Positions 3,950 through 49,336 of a DNA stretch of 64,000 nucleotides are shown piece by piece (the first letter of the stretch is position 1; each line of letters begins with the position of its first letter). This DNA comes from Pseudomonas sediminis (GTDB lineage Bacteria; Pseudomonadota; Gammaproteobacteria; Pseudomonadales; Pseudomonadaceae): positions 2,914,001-2,978,000 of the forward strand of contig NZ_CP154631.1 of assembly GCF_039555755.1 (NCBI RefSeq), read 5' to 3'. Under the pieces are notes generated by a model. That model was not told the origin of the DNA and did not search any database. It saw only the letters and a list, made by a program, of their open reading frames with translations. A program made the position numbers and the translations under genes.

Positions 3950-4723
3950 GTGATCAACGTCTTGCGCGGTGCACTTGTTGCCGGTCTGCTATTTGCCTCT
4001 GTTGCGCAGGCCGGAACGCTGACCTATGTCGTGAACGATGAAAGCTGGATGCCGTACTGGATTGTCGAGGATCAGCAGGTCAGCGGCATCTTCCATGAGT
4101 TAATGCTCGCGCTGGATGAGCGTTTGCCTGAACAACTGCAAGCCAGTCATCCGCAGCCGTCTTTGCGTACGCAGAAGCTGTTCCGTGAGGGGTATCTGCA
4201 GATCGAGTGCTGTGTGAGCAAGAGTTGGCGCAGCGACGCTGATCAGGCCGAAGTCTCACTGTGGACAGTGCCGGTTCTGCAGGCCGAGGAAATGCTGATC
4301 TTCGCGCCTGGCAGGCGCTTTGCCTATGAGCGTCTGCAGGACCTGCAGGGGCGTTAGATTGCCACGGTGCGTGGTTATGGTTACGTCGGTAGCGAGTATT
4401 TCCAGCGCAACGATGGGGCCGATGTGCGGGCGCTGATCTATCTGGTGGCGCAGGGGCGCAGTGAAGCCGGGATTCTGGATCGCCTGGAGTGGCGTTATCT
4501 TCAGCATGAAGACGCGCAACTGCAGGCGTCACGCTGGCAGGTCGAGAAGGGGCCGACGGTCAATCGCTCTCAGCTGCGCTTGCGTTTGCATCGGGATTTT
4601 GCGGGCCGGCTCGATGCATTCAATGCTGCCATCCTGTCCTTGCAGGCCGATGGCACGCTGGCTCGTATCGTCGCCAGGTATGCGCCGCAGGCTCACGTGG
4701 CCGGCCAAGTGGAAATCCGGTAA
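3950..4723 (+). pseudogene. Solute-binding protein (SBP_bac_3-like) interrupted by an in-frame TAG
   Basis: The reading frame would encode a secreted amino-acid-type solute-binding protein of about 257 residues. A GTG start is preceded by GGAGGGGG, then a signal peptide (MINVLRGALVAGLLFASVAQAG) and a mature domain. A TAG at 4355-4357 stops translation after about 135 codons. The same frame continues immediately with IATVRGYGYVGSEYF, the hinge region expected in this family, and stays open to 4723. No indel is needed, only one changed codon. No permease or ATPase gene is adjacent. An ATG at 3935 is an alternative start. Recent nonsense inactivation or a base-call error are both possible. Confidence 0.8.
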
Positions 4724-4757
4724 GCTCTGCCACCCTGCAAAATTACCCCTCCGAATC

Positions 4758-6937
<2,180 letters not shown>

Positions 6938-6977
6938 TTCCTGAACGATTCAAGATCCTTTCCATTAGGAGTGTTAC

Positions 6978-7307
6978 ATGAGTTTTTTCATCCCCGCCGC
7001 TTACGCTGGCACCGCCGCTGCTGGCCCTGCCGGCAGCGGTTTCGAGTGGGTTTTCCTGATTGGCTTTCTGGTCATCTTCTATCTGATGATCTGGCGTCCG
7101 CAGGCCAAGCGCGCCAAGGAGCACAAGAACCTGCTCGGCGGCCTGCAGAAGGGCGACGAAGTGGTCACCAGCGGTGGTATCGCTGGCAAGGTATCCAAGG
7201 TTGCCGACGATTTCGTGGTTATCGAAGTGTCTGACACTGTCGAGCTGAAATTCCAGAAGCAGGCCATCGCTGCCACTCTGCCCAAGGGCACGCTGAAAGC
7301 CATCTGA
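6978..7307 (+). CDS. yajC: Sec translocon accessory protein YajC
   Basis: A 109-residue single-span membrane protein that associates with SecD and SecF and supports preprotein translocation. One hydrophobic helix (about 22-40, VFLIGFLVIFYLMIW) is followed by the signature RPQAKRAKEHKNLLGGLQKGDEV and a small cytoplasmic beta-rich domain. A good Shine-Dalgarno (TAGGAG) precedes the ATG. It sits 40 bp after tgt and upstream of secD, but a 160-bp palindromic element separates it from secD. Confidence 0.95.
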   Translation: MSFFIPAAYAGTAAAGPAGSGFEWVFLIGFLVIFYLMIWRPQAKRAKEHKNLLGGLQKGDEVVTSGGIAGKVSKVADDFVVIEVSDTVELKFQKQAIAATLPKGTLKAI

Positions 7308-7332
7308 TTCGGTTCTTAGTTTCCATTCGACG

Positions 7333-7492
7333 GGGCGCTTTAGGGCACTTCTAAAAACGTAGGCGAGGCAGCCAGCGCAAGGCAAAAACAGGCGAAAAAG
7401 CGGAATTTACGTGTTGTAAATGAGCATTTTGAGCCTGTTTTTAACGCAGCGATGGCAACGCAGGTAGTTTTTAGAGGTGCACTTTAGCGCCC
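7333..7492. repeat. 160-bp palindromic (MITE-like) element between yajC and secD
   Basis: The whole stretch is one imperfect inverted repeat. Outer arms are GGGCGCTTTAGGGCAC at the left against the reverse of GTGCACTTTAGCGCCC at the right. Next inside, GCACTTCTAAAAAC faces GTTTTTAGAGGTGC, then AAAAACAGGC faces GCCTGTTTTT. At the centre ATTTAC-GTGTT-GTAAAT pairs perfectly. It has no ORF of its own and ends 26 bp before the secD start. The structure fits a non-autonomous miniature element; I do not recognise a family name. Confidence 0.75.
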
Positions 7493-7518
7493 TGCGTCAT
7501 AAAGCGGGCGGCTCGTTC

Positions 7519-9387
7519 ATGCTCAATAAATACCCTCTGTGGAAATACCTGCTGATTTTGTCCGTTCTGGCAATCGGCCTGGTGTACTCCATTCCCAACC
7601 TTTATCCAGATGATCCTGCTGTGCAGATCAGTGGCGCCAGTTCGGCGCTGAGCATCGAGCAGACCGATGTCGACCGTGCCAGCAAAGCGCTGCAGGACGC
7701 CGGTATTGCCGTCAAGGCTGCCAGCATCGACGAGCGTGGCCGTGGCGGTCTGATTCGTCTGACCAAGCAGGATGACCAGTTGCCGGCCAAGGACATCGTC
7801 CGCCGCGCGCTGGGTGATGATTACGTCGTGGCGCTGAACCTGGCGCAAACCACCCCCGACTGGCTGCGTAGCCTGGGTGCGAGCCCGATGAAGCTCGGCC
7901 TGGACCTGTCCGGCGGTGTGCACTTCCTGCTGGAAGTCGACATGGACAAGGCGCTGGATGTGCGCCGCAAGGTCTATGAAGGAGAGATCAAGAGCCTGTT
8001 GCGCAAGGAGCGTATTCGCTACCGCAGCATGCCGGAGAGCAATAGCCGGATTCAACTCGGCTTCGCCGACAGCGATACGCTGGACCAGGCGCAGCGCCTG
8101 ATTCGCAAGGATTACAGCGATTTCGAACTGACCACTGTCGAGCGTGGTGGCCAGCAGATTCTGCAGTTGGGGCTGACTCAAGCGAAAATCGCCGAGATTC
8201 GTGAATATTCCATTCGCCAGAACCTCACCACTGTACGTAACCGCGTCAATGAGCTGGGCGTAGCCGAGCCGCTGGTGCAGCGTCAGGGCGCCAACCGCAT
8301 CGTGGTCGAGCTGCCGGGTGTGCAGGACACCGCAGAAGCCAAGCGTATTCTCGGCAAGACCGCCAACCTCGAGTTCCGCCTGCAGGCAGATGTCGATGCG
8401 CCGCGCGGCGCGACCGAGTCCTTCGGCTTCCGCGAGGAAGGTCGTCCGCCGGTGCAGCTCGAGCGTGAACTGATCATCACCGGTGATCAGGTCACCGACG
8501 CCCAGGCCAGTTTCGACGAGAATGGCCGTCCGCAGGTGAACATTCGCCTCGACGGTCATGGCGGCGATCTGATGAACCGCGCCACGCGTAACAACGTCGG
8601 TCGTAGCATGGCGGTGATCTTCATCGAGCAGAGGCCGGTCACTCGCTACGTGCGTCAGAACGTCGACGGCGTCGAGCAGGAAGTGGCTATCTCCTCGTTC
8701 GTCGAAGAGAAGAAGATCATCAGCCTGGCGACTATCCAGTCGGCGCTGGGCAGCCAGTTCCGCATCACCGGCCTGAACGGTCAGGGCGAGTCTTCCGAGC
8801 TTGCGCTGCTGCTGCGTGCTGGTGGTCTGGCAGCGCCGATGTACTTCGCTGAAGAGCGCACCATTGGCCCGAGCCTGGGTGCCGAAAACATTGCCAAGGG
8901 TATCGCCTCCACCGAGTGGGCGATGATCTTCGTGGCTATCTTCATCATCGCCATCTATCGCTTCTTCGGTGTGCTGGCGACCGTTGCCCTGGCGTTCAAC
9001 CTGGTGCTGCTGGTCGGTCTGATGTCGGCCATTGGTGCGACCCTGACCCTGCCCGGTATCGCCGGTATCGTCTTGACTCTGGGTATGGCGGTTGACGCCA
9101 ACGTGCTGATTTTCTCGCGGATACGCGAGGAATTGGCCAATGGACTACCGGTGCAGCGTGCTCTGCACGAGGGCTTCGATCGTGCCTATTCGGCGATTCT
9201 CGACAGTAACCTGACCACCTTGCTGGTGGGCGGCATCCTGTTCGCGATGGGGACCGGTCCGGTGAAAGGCTTCGCGGTGACACTGTCGCTGGGCATCATT
9301 ACGTCGATGTTCACCGCCATCATGTTCACTCGTGGCCTGGTCAACCTGATCTTCGGTGGCCGTAACTTCAAGAAGCTGTGGATCTGA
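7519..9387 (+). CDS. secD: Protein translocase subunit SecD
   Basis: SecD with SecF uses the proton motive force to pull preproteins through SecYEG on the periplasmic side. The 622-residue protein starts MLNKYPLWKYLLILSVLAIG with the first membrane helix. It has the LGLDLSGGVHFLLEVD segment near residue 130, a large periplasmic P1 region, and five C-terminal helices including the GIVLTLGMAVDANVLIFSRIREEL motif. I rejected an in-frame start at 7477 because it lies inside the palindromic element. No strong Shine-Dalgarno is visible, perhaps because the element sits so close. Confidence 0.96.
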   Translation: MLNKYPLWKYLLILSVLAIGLVYSIPNLYPDDPAVQISGASSALSIEQTDVDRASKALQDAGIAVKAASIDERGRGGLIRLTKQDDQLPAKDIVRRALGDDYVVALNLAQTTPDWLRSLGASPMKLGLDLSGGVHFLLEVDMDKALDVRRKVYEGEIKSLLRKERIRYRSMPESNSRIQLGFADSDTLDQAQRLIRKDYSDFELTTVERGGQQILQLGLTQAKIAEIREYSIRQNLTTVRNRVNELGVAEPLVQRQGANRIVVELPGVQDTAEAKRILGKTANLEFRLQADVDAPRGATESFGFREEGRPPVQLERELIITGDQVTDAQASFDENGRPQVNIRLDGHGGDLMNRATRNNVGRSMAVIFIEQRPVTRYVRQNVDGVEQEVAISSFVEEKKIISLATIQSALGSQFRITGLNGQGESSELALLLRAGGLAAPMYFAEERTIGPSLGAENIAKGIASTEWAMIFVAIFIIAIYRFFGVLATVALAFNLVLLVGLMSAIGATLTLPGIAGIVLTLGMAVDANVLIFSRIREELANGLPVQRALHEGFDRAYSAILDSNLTTLLVGGILFAMGTGPVKGFAVTLSLGIITSMFTAIMFTRGLVNLIFGGRNFKKLWI

Positions 9388-9396
9388 GGTGCAGCC

Positions 9397-10314
9397 ATGA
9401 TCAAGTCAACCATTCGTTTCATGGCGATCCGCAACATCGCCTTCTCCATTACGGTCGTGCTGACGCTGATCGGTCTCGGCGCGCTGTTTGCCAAGGGGCT
9501 GAATTTCGGCCTGGATTTCACCGGCGGTACGTTGATCGAACTGCAGTATGAGCAGCCGGCCAATCTCGATCTGATCAAGACCGAGTTGGGCCAGGCTGGC
9601 TATGCCGATGCCGTGGTGCAGAGCTTCGGTGCCAGTACCGATGTGCTGGTGCGTCTGGCTGGCGATTCTCCTGACTTGGGTAATGAGGTCGCAGCTGCGC
9701 TGCGCAAGGTCGATGAGGCGGCACGCTTCGAGGTCAAGCGCGTCGAGTTCGTCGGCCCGCAGGTGGGCGAGGAGCTGCGCGACCAGGGCGGCATTGCCAT
9801 GCTCCTGGCACTGGGCGGGATCATGCTCTACCTGGCTTTCCGCTTTCAGTGGAAGTTTGGTGTCGGTGCGATCGCGTCGCTGGTGCACGACGTGGTGATC
9901 ACCCTGGGTGTGCTGGCGTTCTTCCAGATTCCATTCGACTTGACGGTGCTGGCGGCGGTACTGGCGATGATCGGTTACTCGCTCAACGACACCATCATCA
10001 TCTACGACCGAATTCGTGAGAACTTCCGTGTACTGCGCAAGACCTCGTTGATCGAGAACATCGACGTTTCGATCACCCAGACCCTTTTGCGTACGATCGC
10101 GACTTCGTTGTCTACTGCGCTGGCCTTGTTGGCGCTGCTGTTCTTCGGCGGTGACGTATTGGCGGCCTTTGCTCTGACCCTGCTGGTCGGTGTAGTGGTA
10201 GGCACCTACTCGTCGGTCTACATCGGCGCCACGGTGCTGGTGTGGCTGAAGCTCAGCGTGGAGGATTTGATTCCTCCTGTGGCCGAGGCTGAGGCTGACG
10301 ACGGTCGTCCATGA
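9397..10314 (+). CDS. secF: Protein translocase subunit SecF
   Basis: Partner of SecD in the SecDF complex of the inner membrane. The 305-residue protein has an N-terminal helix, the FGLDFTGGTLIEL segment near residue 35, and five C-terminal helices with the family motif AVLAMIGYSLNDTIIIYDRIREN. It starts 9 bp after secD, so the two are co-transcribed. A strong terminator 30 bp beyond the stop ends the queA-tgt-yajC-secDF run. Confidence 0.97.
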   Translation: MIKSTIRFMAIRNIAFSITVVLTLIGLGALFAKGLNFGLDFTGGTLIELQYEQPANLDLIKTELGQAGYADAVVQSFGASTDVLVRLAGDSPDLGNEVAAALRKVDEAARFEVKRVEFVGPQVGEELRDQGGIAMLLALGGIMLYLAFRFQWKFGVGAIASLVHDVVITLGVLAFFQIPFDLTVLAAVLAMIGYSLNDTIIIYDRIRENFRVLRKTSLIENIDVSITQTLLRTIATSLSTALALLALLFFGGDVLAAFALTLLVGVVVGTYSSVYIGATVLVWLKLSVEDLIPPVAEAEADDGRP

Positions 10315-43816: not shown

Positions 43817-45394
43817 ATGGCCCACGACATTCACGCCCACCGCATCCTCATTCTGGACTTCGGTTCCCAGTACACCCAGTTGATCGCCCGCCGCGTTCGC
43901 GAGATCGGCGTCTATTGCGAACTGCACCCCTGGGACATGAGCGACGAGGACATCCGTGCCTTCGCTCCGCGCGGCATCATCCTCGCCGGTGGCCCGGAGT
44001 CGGTGCACGAAGCCAATAGCCCGCGCGCGCCGCAAGCGGTGTTCGACCTGAATGTGCCGGTACTGGGCATCTGCTACGGCATGCAGACCATGGCCGAGCA
44101 GCTCGGTGGCAAGGTGGAAGGTTCCGACCTGCGTGAATTCGGCTACGCCCGTGTCGACGTGGTCGGCAAGAGCCAGCTGCTGGCTGGTATCGAAGATCAT
44201 GTCGACGCCGACGGCGTGCTGGGCCTCGACGTGTGGATGAGCCACGGCGACAAGGTCACCCGCCTGCCGGAAGGCTTCCACATCCTCGCCAGCACCCCGA
44301 GCTGCCCGATCGCCGCCATGTGCGACGACACTCGCCACTACTATGGCGTGCAGTTCCACCCGGAAGTGACCCATACCAAGCAGGGTGGCCGTATCCTCTC
44401 GCGCTTCGTGCTGGAAATCAGCGGCTGTGAAGCCCTGTGGACCCCGGCCAATATCGTCGAAGACGCCATTGCCGCCGTGCGTGCCCAGGTTGGCGACGCC
44501 AATGTGCTGCTCGGCCTGTCTGGCGGTGTGGACAGCTCGGTGGTCGCGGCGCTGCTGCACAAGGCCATCGGCGACCAACTGACCTGCGTGTTCGTCGACA
44601 ACGGCCTGCTGCGCCTGCACGAAGGTGACCAGGTCATGGCCATGTTCGCCGAGAACATGGGCGTCAAGGTGATCCGCGCCAACGCCGAAGAGCAGTTCCT
44701 CGGCAACCTGGCCGGCGAGTCCGAGCCGGAGAAGAAGCGCAAGATCATCGGCCGTACCTTCATCGACGTGTTCGATGCCGAGGCCAGCAAGCTGGACAAC
44801 ATCCAGTTCCTCGCCCAAGGCACCATCTACCCGGATGTGATCGAGTCGGCTGGCGCCAAGAGCGGCAAGGCTCACGTGATCAAATCGCACCACAACGTTG
44901 GCGGCCTGCCGGAGGAAATGAACCTCAAACTGGTCGAGCCGCTGCGCGAACTGTTCAAGGACGAAGTGCGCAAGATCGGTCTGGAACTGGGCCTGCCCTA
45001 CGACATGGTCTACCGCCACCCATTCCCGGGGCCTGGCCTGGGCGTGCGCATCCTCGGCGAAGTGAAGAAGGAATACGCCGACCTGCTGCGCCGCGCCGAC
45101 CACATCTTCATCGAAGAGCTGCGCAAGGCCGACTGGTACCACAAGACCAGCCAGGCATTCGTTGTATTCCAGCCGGTGAAGTCGGTTGGCGTCGTTGGTG
45201 ACGGCCGTCGCTACGCCTGGGTCGTTGCCCTGCGCGCCGTGGAAACCGTCGACTTCATGACTGCTCGCTGGGCGCACCTGCCTTACGAGCTGCTGGAAAC
45301 CGTCAGCGGCCGCATCATCAACGAAATCGAAGGCATCTCCCGCGTCACCTACGACGTGTCGAGCAAGCCGCCAGCGACGATTGAGTGGGAATGA
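43817..45394 (+). CDS. guaA: GMP synthase (glutamine-hydrolysing)
   Basis: GuaA aminates XMP to GMP using glutamine and ATP. The 525-residue protein has an N-terminal class I amidotransferase domain with the nucleophile Cys in [10 protein letters not shown] (about 86) and HPEVTHT, an ATP-pyrophosphatase domain with LSGGVDSSV (about 235), and a C-terminal dimerisation domain ending PPATIEWE. The last codons and the stop (GAGTGGGAATGATC) are repeated at 49167, marking it as the attachment site of a genomic island. Confidence 0.98.
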
Positions 45395-45396
45395 TC
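45383..45396 (+). other. Putative attL of the guaA-integrated island
   Basis: GAGTGGGAATGATC covers the guaA stop codon and recurs as GAGTGGGAGTGATC at 49167-49180 (13 of 14 bases; 15 of 17 if extended left). The truncated integrase gene begins 300 bp inside this copy. Confidence 0.7.
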
Positions 45397-45441
45397 GGAC
45401 GTCTGGAACGAACCGGCACCGATTAGCAATAAATGCCCTGA

Positions 45442-45465
45442 AGCCCGCGTAATTGCGGGCTTTTT
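45442..45465 (+). terminator. Rho-independent terminator after guaA, inside the island
   Basis: AGCCCGCG-TAATT-CGCGGGCT-type stem (AGCCCGCGTAATTGCGGGCT) is followed by TTTTT. It lies 50 bp past the guaA stop and just inside attL, so it may have come with the island. Confidence 0.85.
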
Positions 45466-45525
45466 GGTTTCTGCGTCTGGCAATCACTGGCAGCTTTTTG
45501 CATCGCCAAGCAACGATTTTGTATG

Positions 45526-45703
45526 GCATGGTACAGGGCATTGATCGAGCCCAATGCCATGCTCCGGCCGAGTACCATGCTGCGTTTTTCTCGCGCGGCA
45601 TGGTATCAAAAACTTATATCCTGCTAATTTTAAAGCATTTTATGTATATGGAAGATTGGTTTTTGAGCATGGTATTTTTGCAGGAGGATTCTGGCGACCA
45701 TGC
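45526..45703. repeat. Cluster of GCATGGTA repeats upstream of the integrase gene
   Basis: Exact GCATGGTA copies lie at 45526-45533, 45598-45605 and 45667-45674, with one exact inverted copy at 45573-45580. One-mismatch inverted copies lie at 45555-45562 and 45696-45703, the last covering the integrase start codon. Related ATGGTA/CATGGT sequences recur near attR (49087-49092, 49098-49103). The arrangement suits arm-type integrase sites or autoregulation. Confidence 0.6.
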
Positions 45704-46324
45704 TGACCGATACCAAGCTGCGACACCTCAAACCGAAGGACAAGCTCTACAAAGTGAATGACCGTGACGGCCTCTATGTAGCCGTTACGCCTGCTGGTTC
45801 GATCTCGTTCCGGTACAACTACTCGATTCACGGCAGGCAGGAGACCATCACTTTCGGGCGTTATGGCGTTGGCGGAATAAGCTTGGCTGAAGCCCGTGAA
45901 CGACTGGGCGAGGCGAAGAAATTGATCGCCGCCGGTAAGTCTCCAGCGAAGGAAAAAGCGCGAGATAAGGCGCGTATCAAGGGCGCAGAAACCTTTGGCA
46001 CCTGGGCTGATAAGTGGCTGCGCGGTTACCAGATGGCCGATAGCACCCGCGATATGCGTCGTTCGGTCTACGAACGCGAGCTGAAGCCTAGATTCGGCAA
46101 CCAAAAGTTGGTCGAAATTACGCACGAGGACTTAAGAACCCTCACAGACGCAATTGTTGAGCGTGGGGCACCCGCCACGGCAGTGCACTCACGGGAGATT
46201 GTGTTGCAGGTATACCGCTGGGCAATCGAACGTGGCCAGAAGGTAGAGAACCCGGCCGATTTGGTGCGCCCTGCGACGATCGCTAGATTCGAGCCGCGTG
46301 ATCGAGCGCTGACGCCTGACGAAA
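45700..46324 (+). pseudogene. P4-type tyrosine integrase, truncated by an IS3-family element
   Basis: About 208 residues of a phage/island integrase remain. The N-terminal DUF4102 arm-binding domain has LTDTKLRHLKPKDKLYKVND and ITFGRYGVGGISLAEARERL, and the SAM-like core-binding domain has FGTWADKWL and LKPRFGNQKLVEITHEDL. The reading frame breaks after RDRALTPDE at the left end of the IS element and ends a few codons into it, so the whole catalytic domain (Arg, His, Tyr) is missing. An AGGAGG precedes the ATG. Its location directly after guaA identifies the origin of the island. Confidence 0.88.
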
Positions 46325-46329
46325 GGGTT

Positions 46330-47190
46330 CTACCCCATTTCCACGGACGGCTTGAAAAGGGCTGAAAACTTCAGATCTTGCCGGGCGACTCTACGACGCA
46401 TACGTGGGTTATGAAACCGCTCGATGTAATCGAATAAATCCGCCCGGGCCTCATCGCGAGTCCGATACGACTGGTGAGCAACACGCTCCCGTTTGAGCTG
46501 ACCGAAGAAGCCCTCACAGGCGGCGTTGTCGCCGCAATGACCGACGGCACTCATGCTGCAGATCAGCGTGTTGCGATTCAAAAAGCGCTGATAGTCCGCA
46601 CTGGTGAATTGGCTACCGCGATCCGAATGCAGGATCACTGACCAGTCACCTTGGCGCTGCCAGATCGCCATCTCCACCGCTCGAATCACCATCAGCCGAT
46701 CTTGGCGGTGGTGCATCGACCAACCGATCACCAGCTTGCTGTACAAGTCGAGCACCACGCATAGGAAGAGTTTGCCTTCCAGTGTGGCTATTTCCGTGAT
46801 GTCCGTGACCCACTTGCGCTCCGGCTCCTGCGCAGTGAAATCGCGCTCCAGCAGATTTTTCACACCTGCTGGACGGCCGCTGGCGGCTCTTCCAAACCCA
46901 CGCCTCTTCCGGCGTGGCCAGCCTTGAATTCGCTCAGCCGCCATCAGGCGAGCAACGCGGTTCAGGCTCACAGTTTCGCCCTCGTCGAGCAGATCCTCGT
47001 GCATACGTGGCGCTCCGATCACACCACGACTGTCCTCGTGAATCTCTCGAATGCGCTTCACCAAGCGCGCATTCTCTCGAGCGCGGGGGCTTGGATCACG
47101 ATCCTGCCAGGCGTAATAGCCACTGGCAGAAACCTTAAGGCAACGGCACATCAGGCGTACCGGGTACTCGTTGCGGCAGCGCTGGATCAC
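46330..47190 (-). CDS. IS3-family transposase OrfB (DDE)
   Basis: The catalytic half of an IS3-family transposase, 286 residues from a GTG start. An HTH_21 segment ([18 protein letters not shown]) is followed by an rve integrase core with Asp in KWVTDITEI, Asp in [15 protein letters not shown] and Glu in [14 protein letters not shown]. It is probably made as an OrfAB fusion by -1 frameshifting: a T TTT TTA heptamer lies at 47238-47244 (minus strand) in orfA, and the orfB frame is open from there. Confidence 0.93.
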
Positions 47191-47489
47191 CGTGTACCGC
47201 TCGATGACTCCCTGGCAAAGTACGCTGCCGCGTCTCTTAAAAAATCACGTTCCTTGGTCACTCGGGCCAGCTCGCGCTTGAGGCGGGCAAGCTCCTCATC
47301 CCGCGGACTTCCCGTTCCTGGGAAGGCTTTCTCCATACCCGGTTGTGCTTCCCGAACCCAGCGGTTTAGCAAGCTCGGGGCCACTCCAATCTCTTGGGCA
47401 ATTTGGCGGCAACTGGTCTCTGAACGACGAGCCAGTTCAACGGCTTCCCGCTTGAATTCGGGACTGTATTTCTTGCGTTTCATGAACAC
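47187..47489 (-). CDS. IS3-family transposase OrfA (helix-turn-helix)
   Basis: A 100-residue DNA-binding protein: helix-turn-helix [20 protein letters not shown] and [21 protein letters not shown], then a leucine-zipper-like stretch ([20 protein letters not shown]). It overlaps orfB by 4 bp and contains the slippery heptamer. It binds the terminal repeats and regulates transposition. Confidence 0.93.
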
Positions 47490-47546
47490 TCCTTCTGCTC
47501 AATATGAGCTTACTCGAAAGTGTCCGTGTTAACGGGGTAGAACCCC

Positions 47547-48660
47547 GATCCAGCAAGCGGACATGGCTGGCGATCAGCGCGTCGTCAGCCACCACCTCGA
47601 TTCGCGTCGGATACAAACGGCTGCTGACCCACTTACCCGCGTACTCACACGGCACCGAGTAGCGGTTGCGCCCGACGCTGACCAGGCAGGTGCTGGAGAC
47701 CCGCGCAGGCCGCTCGACGTAACCGTCGAATGGCGCTGGCACAGGCATCAGTTCAGCGCGCTCCAACTCAAGCACTTCGGCCACACTCAGCCCGCTGTAT
47801 TGAGGGTGCGTCAGCTCGTTCCAAAGCGCGCGGCAGCGCTGGCCCAGCCAGGCATTGAGTTCCTCGAAGGAGTGAAACTGACAGTCCTGGGCGTCTAGCC
47901 AGATACGCCTGCGGCTGTCTTGCACGTTCTTTTCAACGATGCCCTTTTCCCAACCAGCGGCGACGTTGCAGAAGTCCGGATCGAACAGGTAATGCGCGCA
48001 CATCACCGCAAAGCGTGCATTCACCGCCCGGCCTTTGCCCTTATTGACCTTGTCGACGGCGGTCTTCATGTTGTCGTAGATGCCCCGGCGCGGCACGCCG
48101 CCCAAGGCGCCGAACGAGCGTGTATGGGCGTCAAATAACATCTCATGGCCCTGGCTCGGATACGCCACAAGCCAGAACGCACGGCTGGCACACAGCTTCA
48201 GATGTGCCACCTGCATACGCCGGTAAATGCCGCCGACCAGCAAGCCTTCCTCGCTCCAGTCAAACTGAAACGCCTCGCCAAGAGCAAAGGTCAGCGGCAC
48301 AAAGGCCTGCGACGCCTTGCCCTGTCCCCCTCGCCAGGCACGGATAAACGCGGTGAGCTGGCTGTAGCCACCGTCATAACCATCGGCTTTGATTTGCGCC
48401 AACAGCGCCTTGGCACTGCGCCGCTGTTGCTTGGGGCGCAGCGAATCGGCTTTTAGCGCCTGCTCTAGCGTGGCGTGAAAAGGGCTGAGTTTGTTAAAGA
48501 TCGCGCGGCGTTGGTACACCGGCTGCTTGGCCTCAGGTGCTCTGACCCACTTGCGAATCGTGTTGCGCGCCAGCCCGGTGCGCTTGGCTATCTCATGCAG
48601 CGACAGCTTGTCGCGGAAATACATCCGCCGAATTTTGCCCATCATTTCCATACTGATCAC
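47547..48660 (-). pseudogene. istA: IS21-family transposase IstA, 3'-truncated
   Basis: About 371 residues of IstA remain: helix-turn-helix (MMGKIRRMYFRDKLSLHEIAKRT), the integrase core beginning GEAFQFDWSEEGLLVGG and continuing through GVPRRGIYDNMKTAVDKV, and the C-terminal SVGRNRYSVPCEYAGKWV domain. After HVRLLDRG the frame enters the IS3 end and adds about 36 foreign codons before a stop, so roughly the last quarter and the istB ATPase gene are lost. The element can no longer transpose by itself. Confidence 0.85.
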
Positions 48661-48766
48661 CCTGTGTTCTCCTGCTCAAAAATTGAGCAGAAGCAGTTGA
48701 ACACCTGGGTCAGTTTTCAGTCGGCAGAACAGCCTCTACTGGGTCAGTTTTCGGTCAGCGGCAACA
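47547..48766 (-). mobile_element. IS21-family element remnant (5' part)
   Basis: The right boundary reads on the minus strand TGTTGCCGCTGACCGAAAAC, and an 18-bp repeat CTGGGTCAGTTTTC(A/G)GTC occurs at 48705-48722 and 48739-48756. Multiple terminal repeats of this kind are typical of IS21-family ends. The other end and istB are missing, cut off at the IS3 junction. Confidence 0.75.
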
Positions 48767-48885
48767 TCTTAGCCAATGCAGCGAAGCCCGATCATCGTTT
48801 GCGCACTCCAGGTGAACCTATGAGATGCGAATGATTCTCCTAGGTACCAATTTGGTTTGTTTCCAGCTAGGCAACGAGGTGGGGA

Positions 48886-49074
48886 ATGAGAGATCGCAGT
48901 CACGATGAGGCAATGGCAGAGCTTTTCCTGGCTAATCCGGCTTATGCTGCTGAATTGGTTGCCGAAGTCTGTGCCGAAGGGGCGGTTGATGAGCTTGTGG
49001 TGTTGATGCGTCAGTTTTCTACTGGCGTCGCTTATAGAGATGTGGCTTCTGGCGACACAAACTCTCAAAAGTGA
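48886..49074 (+). CDS. Small island ORF, antitoxin-like N-terminal motif
   Basis: A 62-residue acidic protein, MRDRSHDEAMAELFLANPAY and on, with an excellent ribosome site (GAGGTGGGG). The RSHDEAMAELF start and the later VDELVVLMRQFSTG resemble, from memory, small regulators found beside RelE/HigB-like toxins. No toxin gene is adjacent. It ends in a short polar tail and has no recognisable helix-turn-helix. It lies inside the island between the IS21 remnant and attR, so it may be the last surviving cargo gene. Function is unknown. Confidence 0.5.
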   Translation: MRDRSHDEAMAELFLANPAYAAELVAEVCAEGAVDELVVLMRQFSTGVAYRDVASGDTNSQK

Positions 49075-49166
49075 TTTTGATCCTTTATGGTATTTCTCAT
49101 GGTTTTAGAATTCTGCGTGCCTTATGGGCTAAGGATTTACTGGCCTGTGCGTGACTGTTGATAATA

Positions 49167-49180
49167 GAGTGGGAGTGATC
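49167..49180 (+). other. Putative attR of the guaA-integrated island
   Basis: GAGTGGGAGTGATC matches the guaA-end copy at 45383-45396 except at one base. Immediately after it begins sequence that fits the native downstream flank: a terminator and the multicopper oxidase gene that normally follows guaA in pseudomonads. No gene or motif beyond the ATGGTA repeats is seen between 49075 and this site. Confidence 0.7.
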
Positions 49181-49190
49181 CCGAAGCGCT

Positions 49191-49226
49191 GCATGAAAAG
49201 ACCGGCTTAGGCCGGTTTTTTCATGC
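49191..49226 (+). terminator. Strong terminator after attR, probably the ancestral guaA terminator
   Basis: GCATGAAAA and ACCGGC pair with GCCGGT and TTTTCATGC across a TTAG loop, with an internal T-run. No gene immediately upstream needs it except guaA before island insertion. Confidence 0.7.
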
Positions 49227-49336
49227 CCGCAGGTTGGAGCTGCGGCAACCCGACTCTGCTAGTGGGGTCGTTTTCCATTCGTTGAAAATGAGAAGATACC
49301 GCAATTGAGTATGCGCGCAGATTGCCGAGGATGAAG

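Follow-up and report, generated by a model that had tools for sequence, protein, structure and literature searches.

The 64,000-bp stretch of Pseudomonas sediminis DNA analyzed here (the window, positions 2914001-2978000 of G000, a 4,615,908-bp single-contig genome) raises the question of how a 3,784-bp segment containing half of an integrase gene and two insertion sequence (IS) elements came to lie at the 3' end of guaA. We are highly confident that a guaA-specific genomic island with a P4-type integrase inserted at this site, was colonized by IS elements and lost its interior by deletion, and that the remnant is a cis-mobilizable element (CIME) which retains the left and right attachment (att) sites, attL and attR, and a single right-end gene. 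The segment is delimited by the following features:

43817-45394, plus strand: guaA (GMP synthase), the target gene of the island, with GATase and GMP_synt_C domain matches
45383-45396, plus strand: attL core repeat, in which the identical 8-bp exchange region GAGTGGGA occupies 45383-45390
49158-49180, plus strand: attR, composed of TTGATAATA and GAGTGGGAGTGATC, a right boundary common to other guaA islands
49181-49321, plus strand: native guaA 3' flank resuming, 99.3% identical over 141 bp to the genome G064, where it lies directly 3' of guaA

The segment is bounded by two copies of GAGTGGGA(A/G)TGATC, namely GAGTGGGAATGATC at 45383-45396 and GAGTGGGAGTGATC at 49167-49180. The guaA end reads GAG TGG GAA TGA TC, the right 14-base copy differs by one change, and the longest stretch identical between the copies is the 8 bases GAGTGGGA. 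With at most one mismatch permitted, the repeat pattern is matched twice in the window compared with a mean of 0.03 in 100 shuffles, none of which reaches two; a chance repeat is thus rejected, and the recurrence of the guaA end 3.8 kb away, claimed in a preliminary description of this locus, is borne out. The same description gave the gene order past the right copy as multicopper oxidase, tadA, mltF and purL, and the domain scan recovers the first three 3' of the right copy: a multicopper oxidase, a deaminase, which we take to be tadA, and a protein with SBP_bac_3 and SLT domains, which we take to be mltF.

A check set beforehand, the search for an empty site in relatives, was answered by G064, a genome of the same species by the kinship label of the genome set. 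The guaA C-terminal match and the mltF match are 2,547 bases apart in G064 compared with 6,331 in the window, and the difference equals the 3,784 bp that space the two repeats, which makes G064 an exact empty site. G064 reads guaA ...GACGATTGAGTGGGAGTGATCCCGAAGCGC..., that is, the left flank of the window through GAGTGGGA and then the right flank. Short guaA-mltF match intervals (2,040-2,547 bases), in which guaA continues without an island end, are found in G064, G012, G255 and G014, and in the first three of these guaA is directly joined to the oxidase-side flank.

The empty site also bears on the point of exchange. Fused at GAGTGGGA, the window flanks give a gapless 717-base alignment to G064, in which the 14 mismatches are scattered and all lie more than 90 bases off the junction; fusing them after the 14-base repeat instead costs one extra mismatch, at the variable base. 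The empty site of G064 has GGGAGTGATCCC where the window has GGGAATGATCGG. Most simply, strand exchange would have taken place within the 8 bases GAGTGGGA, such that the guaA bases from 45391 onward would be island-derived and the island would have supplied the last codon base and the stop of the present guaA. According to a passage in PMC7775301, which credits Song et al. (2012), GAGTGGGA is the cut site of guaA islands.

The interior of the segment, apart from its two ends, consists of three truncated or mobile parts:

45700-46324, plus strand: first 208 residues of the integrase, which comprise the arm-binding and core-binding domains, with loss of the catalytic domain, as identified by domain scan and relatives
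46325-47545, minus strand: full-length IS3-family element, with orfA at 47187-47489 and orfB at 46330-47190, lacking a target duplication (AAA / CGA)
47546-48766, minus strand: truncated IS21-family element, of which the terminal repeat and the greater part of istA remain and the other side is gone

The N terminus of a P4-type integrase had been predicted just inside the left repeat copy, and it indeed starts at 45700, 305 bp past the guaA stop, with matches to Arm-DNA-bind_3 (1.4e-20) and Phage_int_M (4.8e-13). The integrase coding sequence stops at codon 208 (base 46323), and the frame then extends for 13 codons into the IS3 element. Full-length relatives have 395-403 residues, with Phage_integrase starting at residue 203 in the two that were scanned; given that the match to relatives ends at residue 208, the catalytic domain is gone. 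Relocation of the missing half within the genome was considered and left aside: a search of G000 with this half of the G270 integrase yielded only four matches, at 25-41% identity. No guaA-type integrase besides the remnant was found in G000, so that excision would require an integrase from outside.

Among 298 genomes of the genus, the 208-residue query matches 22 loci besides its own at 84-91% identity (one of them, L026, in pieces only) and three at 59%. In all 25 fetched relatives guaA is located directly upstream, which agrees with the view of the guaA 3' end as an island hotspot and with the expectation that islands with a matching integrase would be found there. Three of the 25 look broken, namely L011 (267 aa), L025 (internal TAG) and L026 (split), lengths being taken from plus-orientation loci only. 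Seven weaker matches that were examined, L030-L033 (33-35%) and three other integrases of G000 (24-30%), are not at guaA. Partial matches in G129 (residues 1-42) and G150 (residues 3-71), located by coordinates about 0.3 kb past guaA, look like other integrase remnants. In the G270 island, AlpA (PF05930) adjoins the integrase; no AlpA match was obtained among the six open reading frames (ORFs) of the interval that were scanned, further overlapping frames lying outside the scan, and there are no transfer genes among the scanned ORFs.

IS DNA makes up 2,442 of the 3,784 bp, and the G+C content of the island parts (0.54 and 0.48) is lower than that of guaA and the oxidase gene (0.64). The IS3 element has 24-base terminal repeats and is present in three identical copies in the genome; copy L087 is flanked by a 3-base duplication (ATC), and the window copy lies between AAA (left) and CGA (right). 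The left flank of the latter is integrase and its right flank is inner istA, which implies that a deletion, with IS3 at the breakpoint, removed the intervening DNA. The nine other genomic copies of the IS21 element all share the right end ...GGCAACA, with an identical continuation leftward. Support for the colonization by IS21 and IS3 elements and the subsequent collapse proposed in the preliminary description comes from the truncation of IS21 and the lack of a target duplication; its "small cargo ORF", by contrast, proves to be a recurrent right-end gene, as detailed below. Reciprocal exchange among the three IS3 copies as an explanation of the missing duplication was left aside because the flanks fail to pair. 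The IS3 copy L086 (C1:4101342-4102562 of G000) hints at another rearrangement of this genome.

The rest of the segment is made up of the two island ends:

45397-45699, plus strand: island left end, which holds a terminator-like site (45440-45463) and four putative arm sites for the integrase (CATGGTA/TACCATG)
48767-49166, plus strand: island right end, parts of which are similar in DNA to right-end regions of other guaA islands
48886-49074, plus strand: 62-aa ORF, apparently a relative of HI1420-type antidote protein without the helix-turn-helix (HTH), recurring inside attR of guaA islands

The guaA-mltF interval was fetched from 32 genomes, 14 of which hold the integrase and belong to the 25 integrase-bearing genomes. 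The left end of the window is 76-86% similar over 122-287 bases to that of 13 of these 14 integrase islands and more weakly (70%) to that of G270. Of the 15 left ends, window included, 14 contain CATGGTA in direct or reverse-complement orientation. In the 14 left ends compared by position, the sites lie about 130, 176 (inverted), 203 and 273 bases after the repeat; all four occur in 10 of them (again with the window), the fourth being one base short in G192, only three being present in G086 and G270, and none in G066, the left end of which is shorter. First-order resampling, repeated 5,000 times, gives a mean of 0.04 copies and never reaches the four seen in the window left end. On the right side, 11 of 15 contain ATGGTAT, eight of them about 80 bases ahead of the core and three about 68. 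Terminator-like sites in the left-end region (six, with a shuffle mean of 4.2) are not above shuffles.

The right boundary in other islands is TTGATAATA-GAGTGGGA, as it is in the window, and a GATAATA-GAGTGGGA right end, with one-base variants permitted, is present in 11 of the 14 integrase islands (the core of G066 being degenerate). Across genomes taken one per species, the exact attR pattern occurs at 72 sites in 67 stretches, mostly from Pseudomonas and other proteobacteria by title; chance may account for some of them. Left-end-like sequence was seen past guaA in L074 (G091), L076 (G176) and L083 (G182), and past an internal right att in L072 (G043), none of these intervals showing DNA that resembles the integrase; all four are possible further remnants at the guaA site. 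As for the contents of other guaA islands, that of L062 (G104) encompasses, at 5655-10168, a cluster resembling cyclic-oligonucleotide-based antiphage signaling systems (CBASS), with an oligonucleotide cyclase, HORMA, TRIP13, an exonuclease and a PN-superfamily effector, and in the small island of L052 (G192) the largest gene, at 4288-7311, encodes a 1,007-aa Type ISP restriction-modification enzyme.

The 62-aa ORF has similar DNA in ten of the fetched intervals, the window counted, mostly near the right att. With a profile built from nine copies, 12 of the 14 integrase islands yield a relative; in eight of them it sits immediately inward of the right att, and seven of these eight had contributed to the profile. 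At 1e-6, the profile matches 31 of the 298 genomes, 18 of the 26 with a guaA-type integrase compared with 13 of the 272 others (Fisher 7e-15, with the window's own genome included and species not independent). The sequence GATAATAGAGTGGGA, with at most two mismatches, lies downstream of the relative in 16 of 30 loci, 250-280 bases past the start codon in 15 and 510 in one; 14 loci have no such att nearby. In the shuffle control (50 shuffles per locus) the best match has 2 to 5 mismatches, so that L171 and L187, with three mismatches, are by themselves within chance; L187 has the full GAGTGGGAGTGA core at the expected distance. The differences at the three codon positions, 245/195/524 over 28 pairs of eight copies, imply past or present selection on this frame at the level of the protein.

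No significant Pfam or NCBIfam match was obtained for the 62-aa protein or for the right-end proteins, which mostly have 57-62 residues. Four of the loci without the att encode longer proteins of 99-105 residues, and the two longer relatives scanned (103 and 99 aa) score above the cut-off for PF21716 and below it for TIGR02684. A large protein collection holds 583 relatives, and some among the 120 listed are named "addiction module antidote protein" or "DNA-binding phage protein". The 62-aa protein, which has neither a PF21716 or TIGR02684 score nor the HTH-bearing C-terminal half of HI1420-type antidotes, looks, from its sequence, like a short relative of these "addiction module antidote" proteins; the half that it lacks is presumably the HTH. 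Profile matches to solved structures, to three designed repeat proteins (best 1.1e-6, with no single stretch passing alone) and to a magnesium transporter (0.075, marginal), were dismissed as chance. Of the 23 Pseudomonas records with the attR pattern, 12 have a clear copy of the ORF within about 320 bases of it, and no record from outside Pseudomonas does, the profile being derived from Pseudomonas copies only; the notion that the gene is universal to guaA islands was accordingly left aside.

How far do these observations compel the history of a single inserted and decayed island? Several points weigh against it. Three of the 14 integrase islands are without the GATAATA right end: in G270 and G051 the core is kept with different bases ahead, and G117 has no second core within two mismatches. 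A target duplication is likewise missing from the IS3 copy L086, and its absence alone is therefore no proof of deletion at the window copy. The base after GAGTGGGA is A or G in guaA ends with islands and without, and hence this single base cannot fix the exchange point, a later mutation being possible. Finally, CATGGTA and ATGGTAT are inferred to be integrase arm sites solely from the sequence. Were the interval instead native guaA-oxidase intergenic DNA that only received IS insertions, with a coincidental repeat, most of its length would indeed be accounted for by IS DNA; but G064, G012 and G255 join guaA straight to the oxidase-side flank, shuffles do not reproduce the repeat, and the integrase half occupies the exact integrase position of other islands. 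We consider this reading, which the empty site refutes, to have next to no chance of being correct. A composite of two successive guaA islands, the left end coming from one and the right end from the other, joined by deletion, appears improbable to us. Tandem accretion of this kind, or its scars, is suggested by G276, G226, G051, G145 and G249 (L047-L048, L050-L051, L054-L055, L066-L067 and L049), where left-end-like sequence comes after an internal att core; the window, however, has no internal core copy (two copies within one mismatch only), an absence that deletion would equally explain.

Another alternative concerns the 62-aa ORF, which might be a maintained functional part of the island, a factor for recombination control or island stability, and not a leftover. 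The protein-level constraint, the strong association with the integrase and the att-like right end downstream of about half of the loci are in its favor, but nearly as many loci lack such an att, the ORF accompanies the attR pattern in only about half of the Pseudomonas records, and the protein tied to control and excision by guaA integrases is, in passages of PMC9376610 and PMC7775301, AlpA. On balance, we find this role doubtful, albeit worth entertaining. Relatives of the 62-aa protein exist in Serratia and others, and a broader proposal would be that guaA islands of Pseudomonas, perhaps also those of Serratia and others, carry at their right end a selected, HTH-less, antidote-derived protein for stability or recombination control that acts with the arm sites and whose frame has stayed open even after the collapse seen here, with the remnant as a mobilizable hitch-hiker; this we regard as quite unlikely.

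For the single decayed island, then, the following course of events can be proposed. An island with a P4-type tyrosine integrase entered the guaA 3' end by site-specific exchange, as shown by the empty site and the relatives, the exchange point most simply lying inside GAGTGGGA. After insertion, the last bases of guaA would be those of the island, giving a synonymous last codon, and the terminator-like site would lie behind them. The IS21 and IS3 elements, both seen in place, subsequently landed in the island, and a deletion whose visible end points are integrase codon 209 and mid-istA removed the catalytic domain, the cargo and the rest of IS21, possibly through recombination of two IS3 copies or an IS3 adjacent deletion. 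Having no working integrase, the remnant should not exit unaided; excision would still be conceivable if a related guaA integrase were supplied in trans.

In itself the remnant is biologically unremarkable, a known type of element of which a decayed member is newly documented: published work already covers guaA integration, the P4 integrase, GAGTGGGA and the decay of islands to CIMEs. What the locus offers is a base-resolved case of island decay in place, in which the empty site, the exchange region, the IS-linked deletion and the surviving ends are all visible. It further points to a family of small proteins, covered by no model in Pfam or NCBIfam, whose members recur at the right end of guaA islands. 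This recurrent protein may be new; a literature search found no description of an antidote-like protein in Pseudomonas guaA genomic islands, which is weak evidence and no proof of absence.

Genomic islands associated with guaA and carrying a P4-type integrase were reportedly described by Song et al. in 2012. Examples mentioned in PMC10386936 include ympGI-guaA of P. mendocina ymp and the 76-kb myrcene locus of Pseudomonas sp. M1. The remnant shares with such islands the guaA 3' site, the exchange sequence GAGTGGGA as given in a passage of PMC7775301, present here as direct repeats, and a P4-type integrase as the first gene after guaA, which belongs by its N-terminal 208 residues to the guaA-associated group. 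It differs from them in that the integrase is cut at codon 208 and the interior is lost, leaving the ends, the IS elements and one right-end gene; AlpA, expected near the integrase, is absent from the six scanned ORFs. Lacking a complete integrase with its catalytic domain, it is a remnant and not a working island. ICERspD18B, as portrayed in parts of PMC7775301, resembles it in the 20-bp repeat with GAGTGGGA at the guaA 3' end and has a P4 integrase with adjacent alpA, but is an active, self-transmissible 28.5-kb element. Similarly, GIsul2 integrates at the guaA 3' end via its own integrase and att cores but, according to passages of PMC9376610, is active, with excision and integration shown, and carries sul2; both likenesses are by description and not by integrase sequence. 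The closest category is the CIME, which sections of PMC5704250 define as a decayed integrative and conjugative element (ICE) or integrative and mobilizable element (IME) that has lost its integration genes and kept attL and attR. The remnant retains both sites, with an empty counterpart in a relative, a truncated integrase and no transfer gene among the scanned ORFs; whereas that definition presumes ICE or IME ancestry, the remnant matches it by its ends and its lost integration genes.

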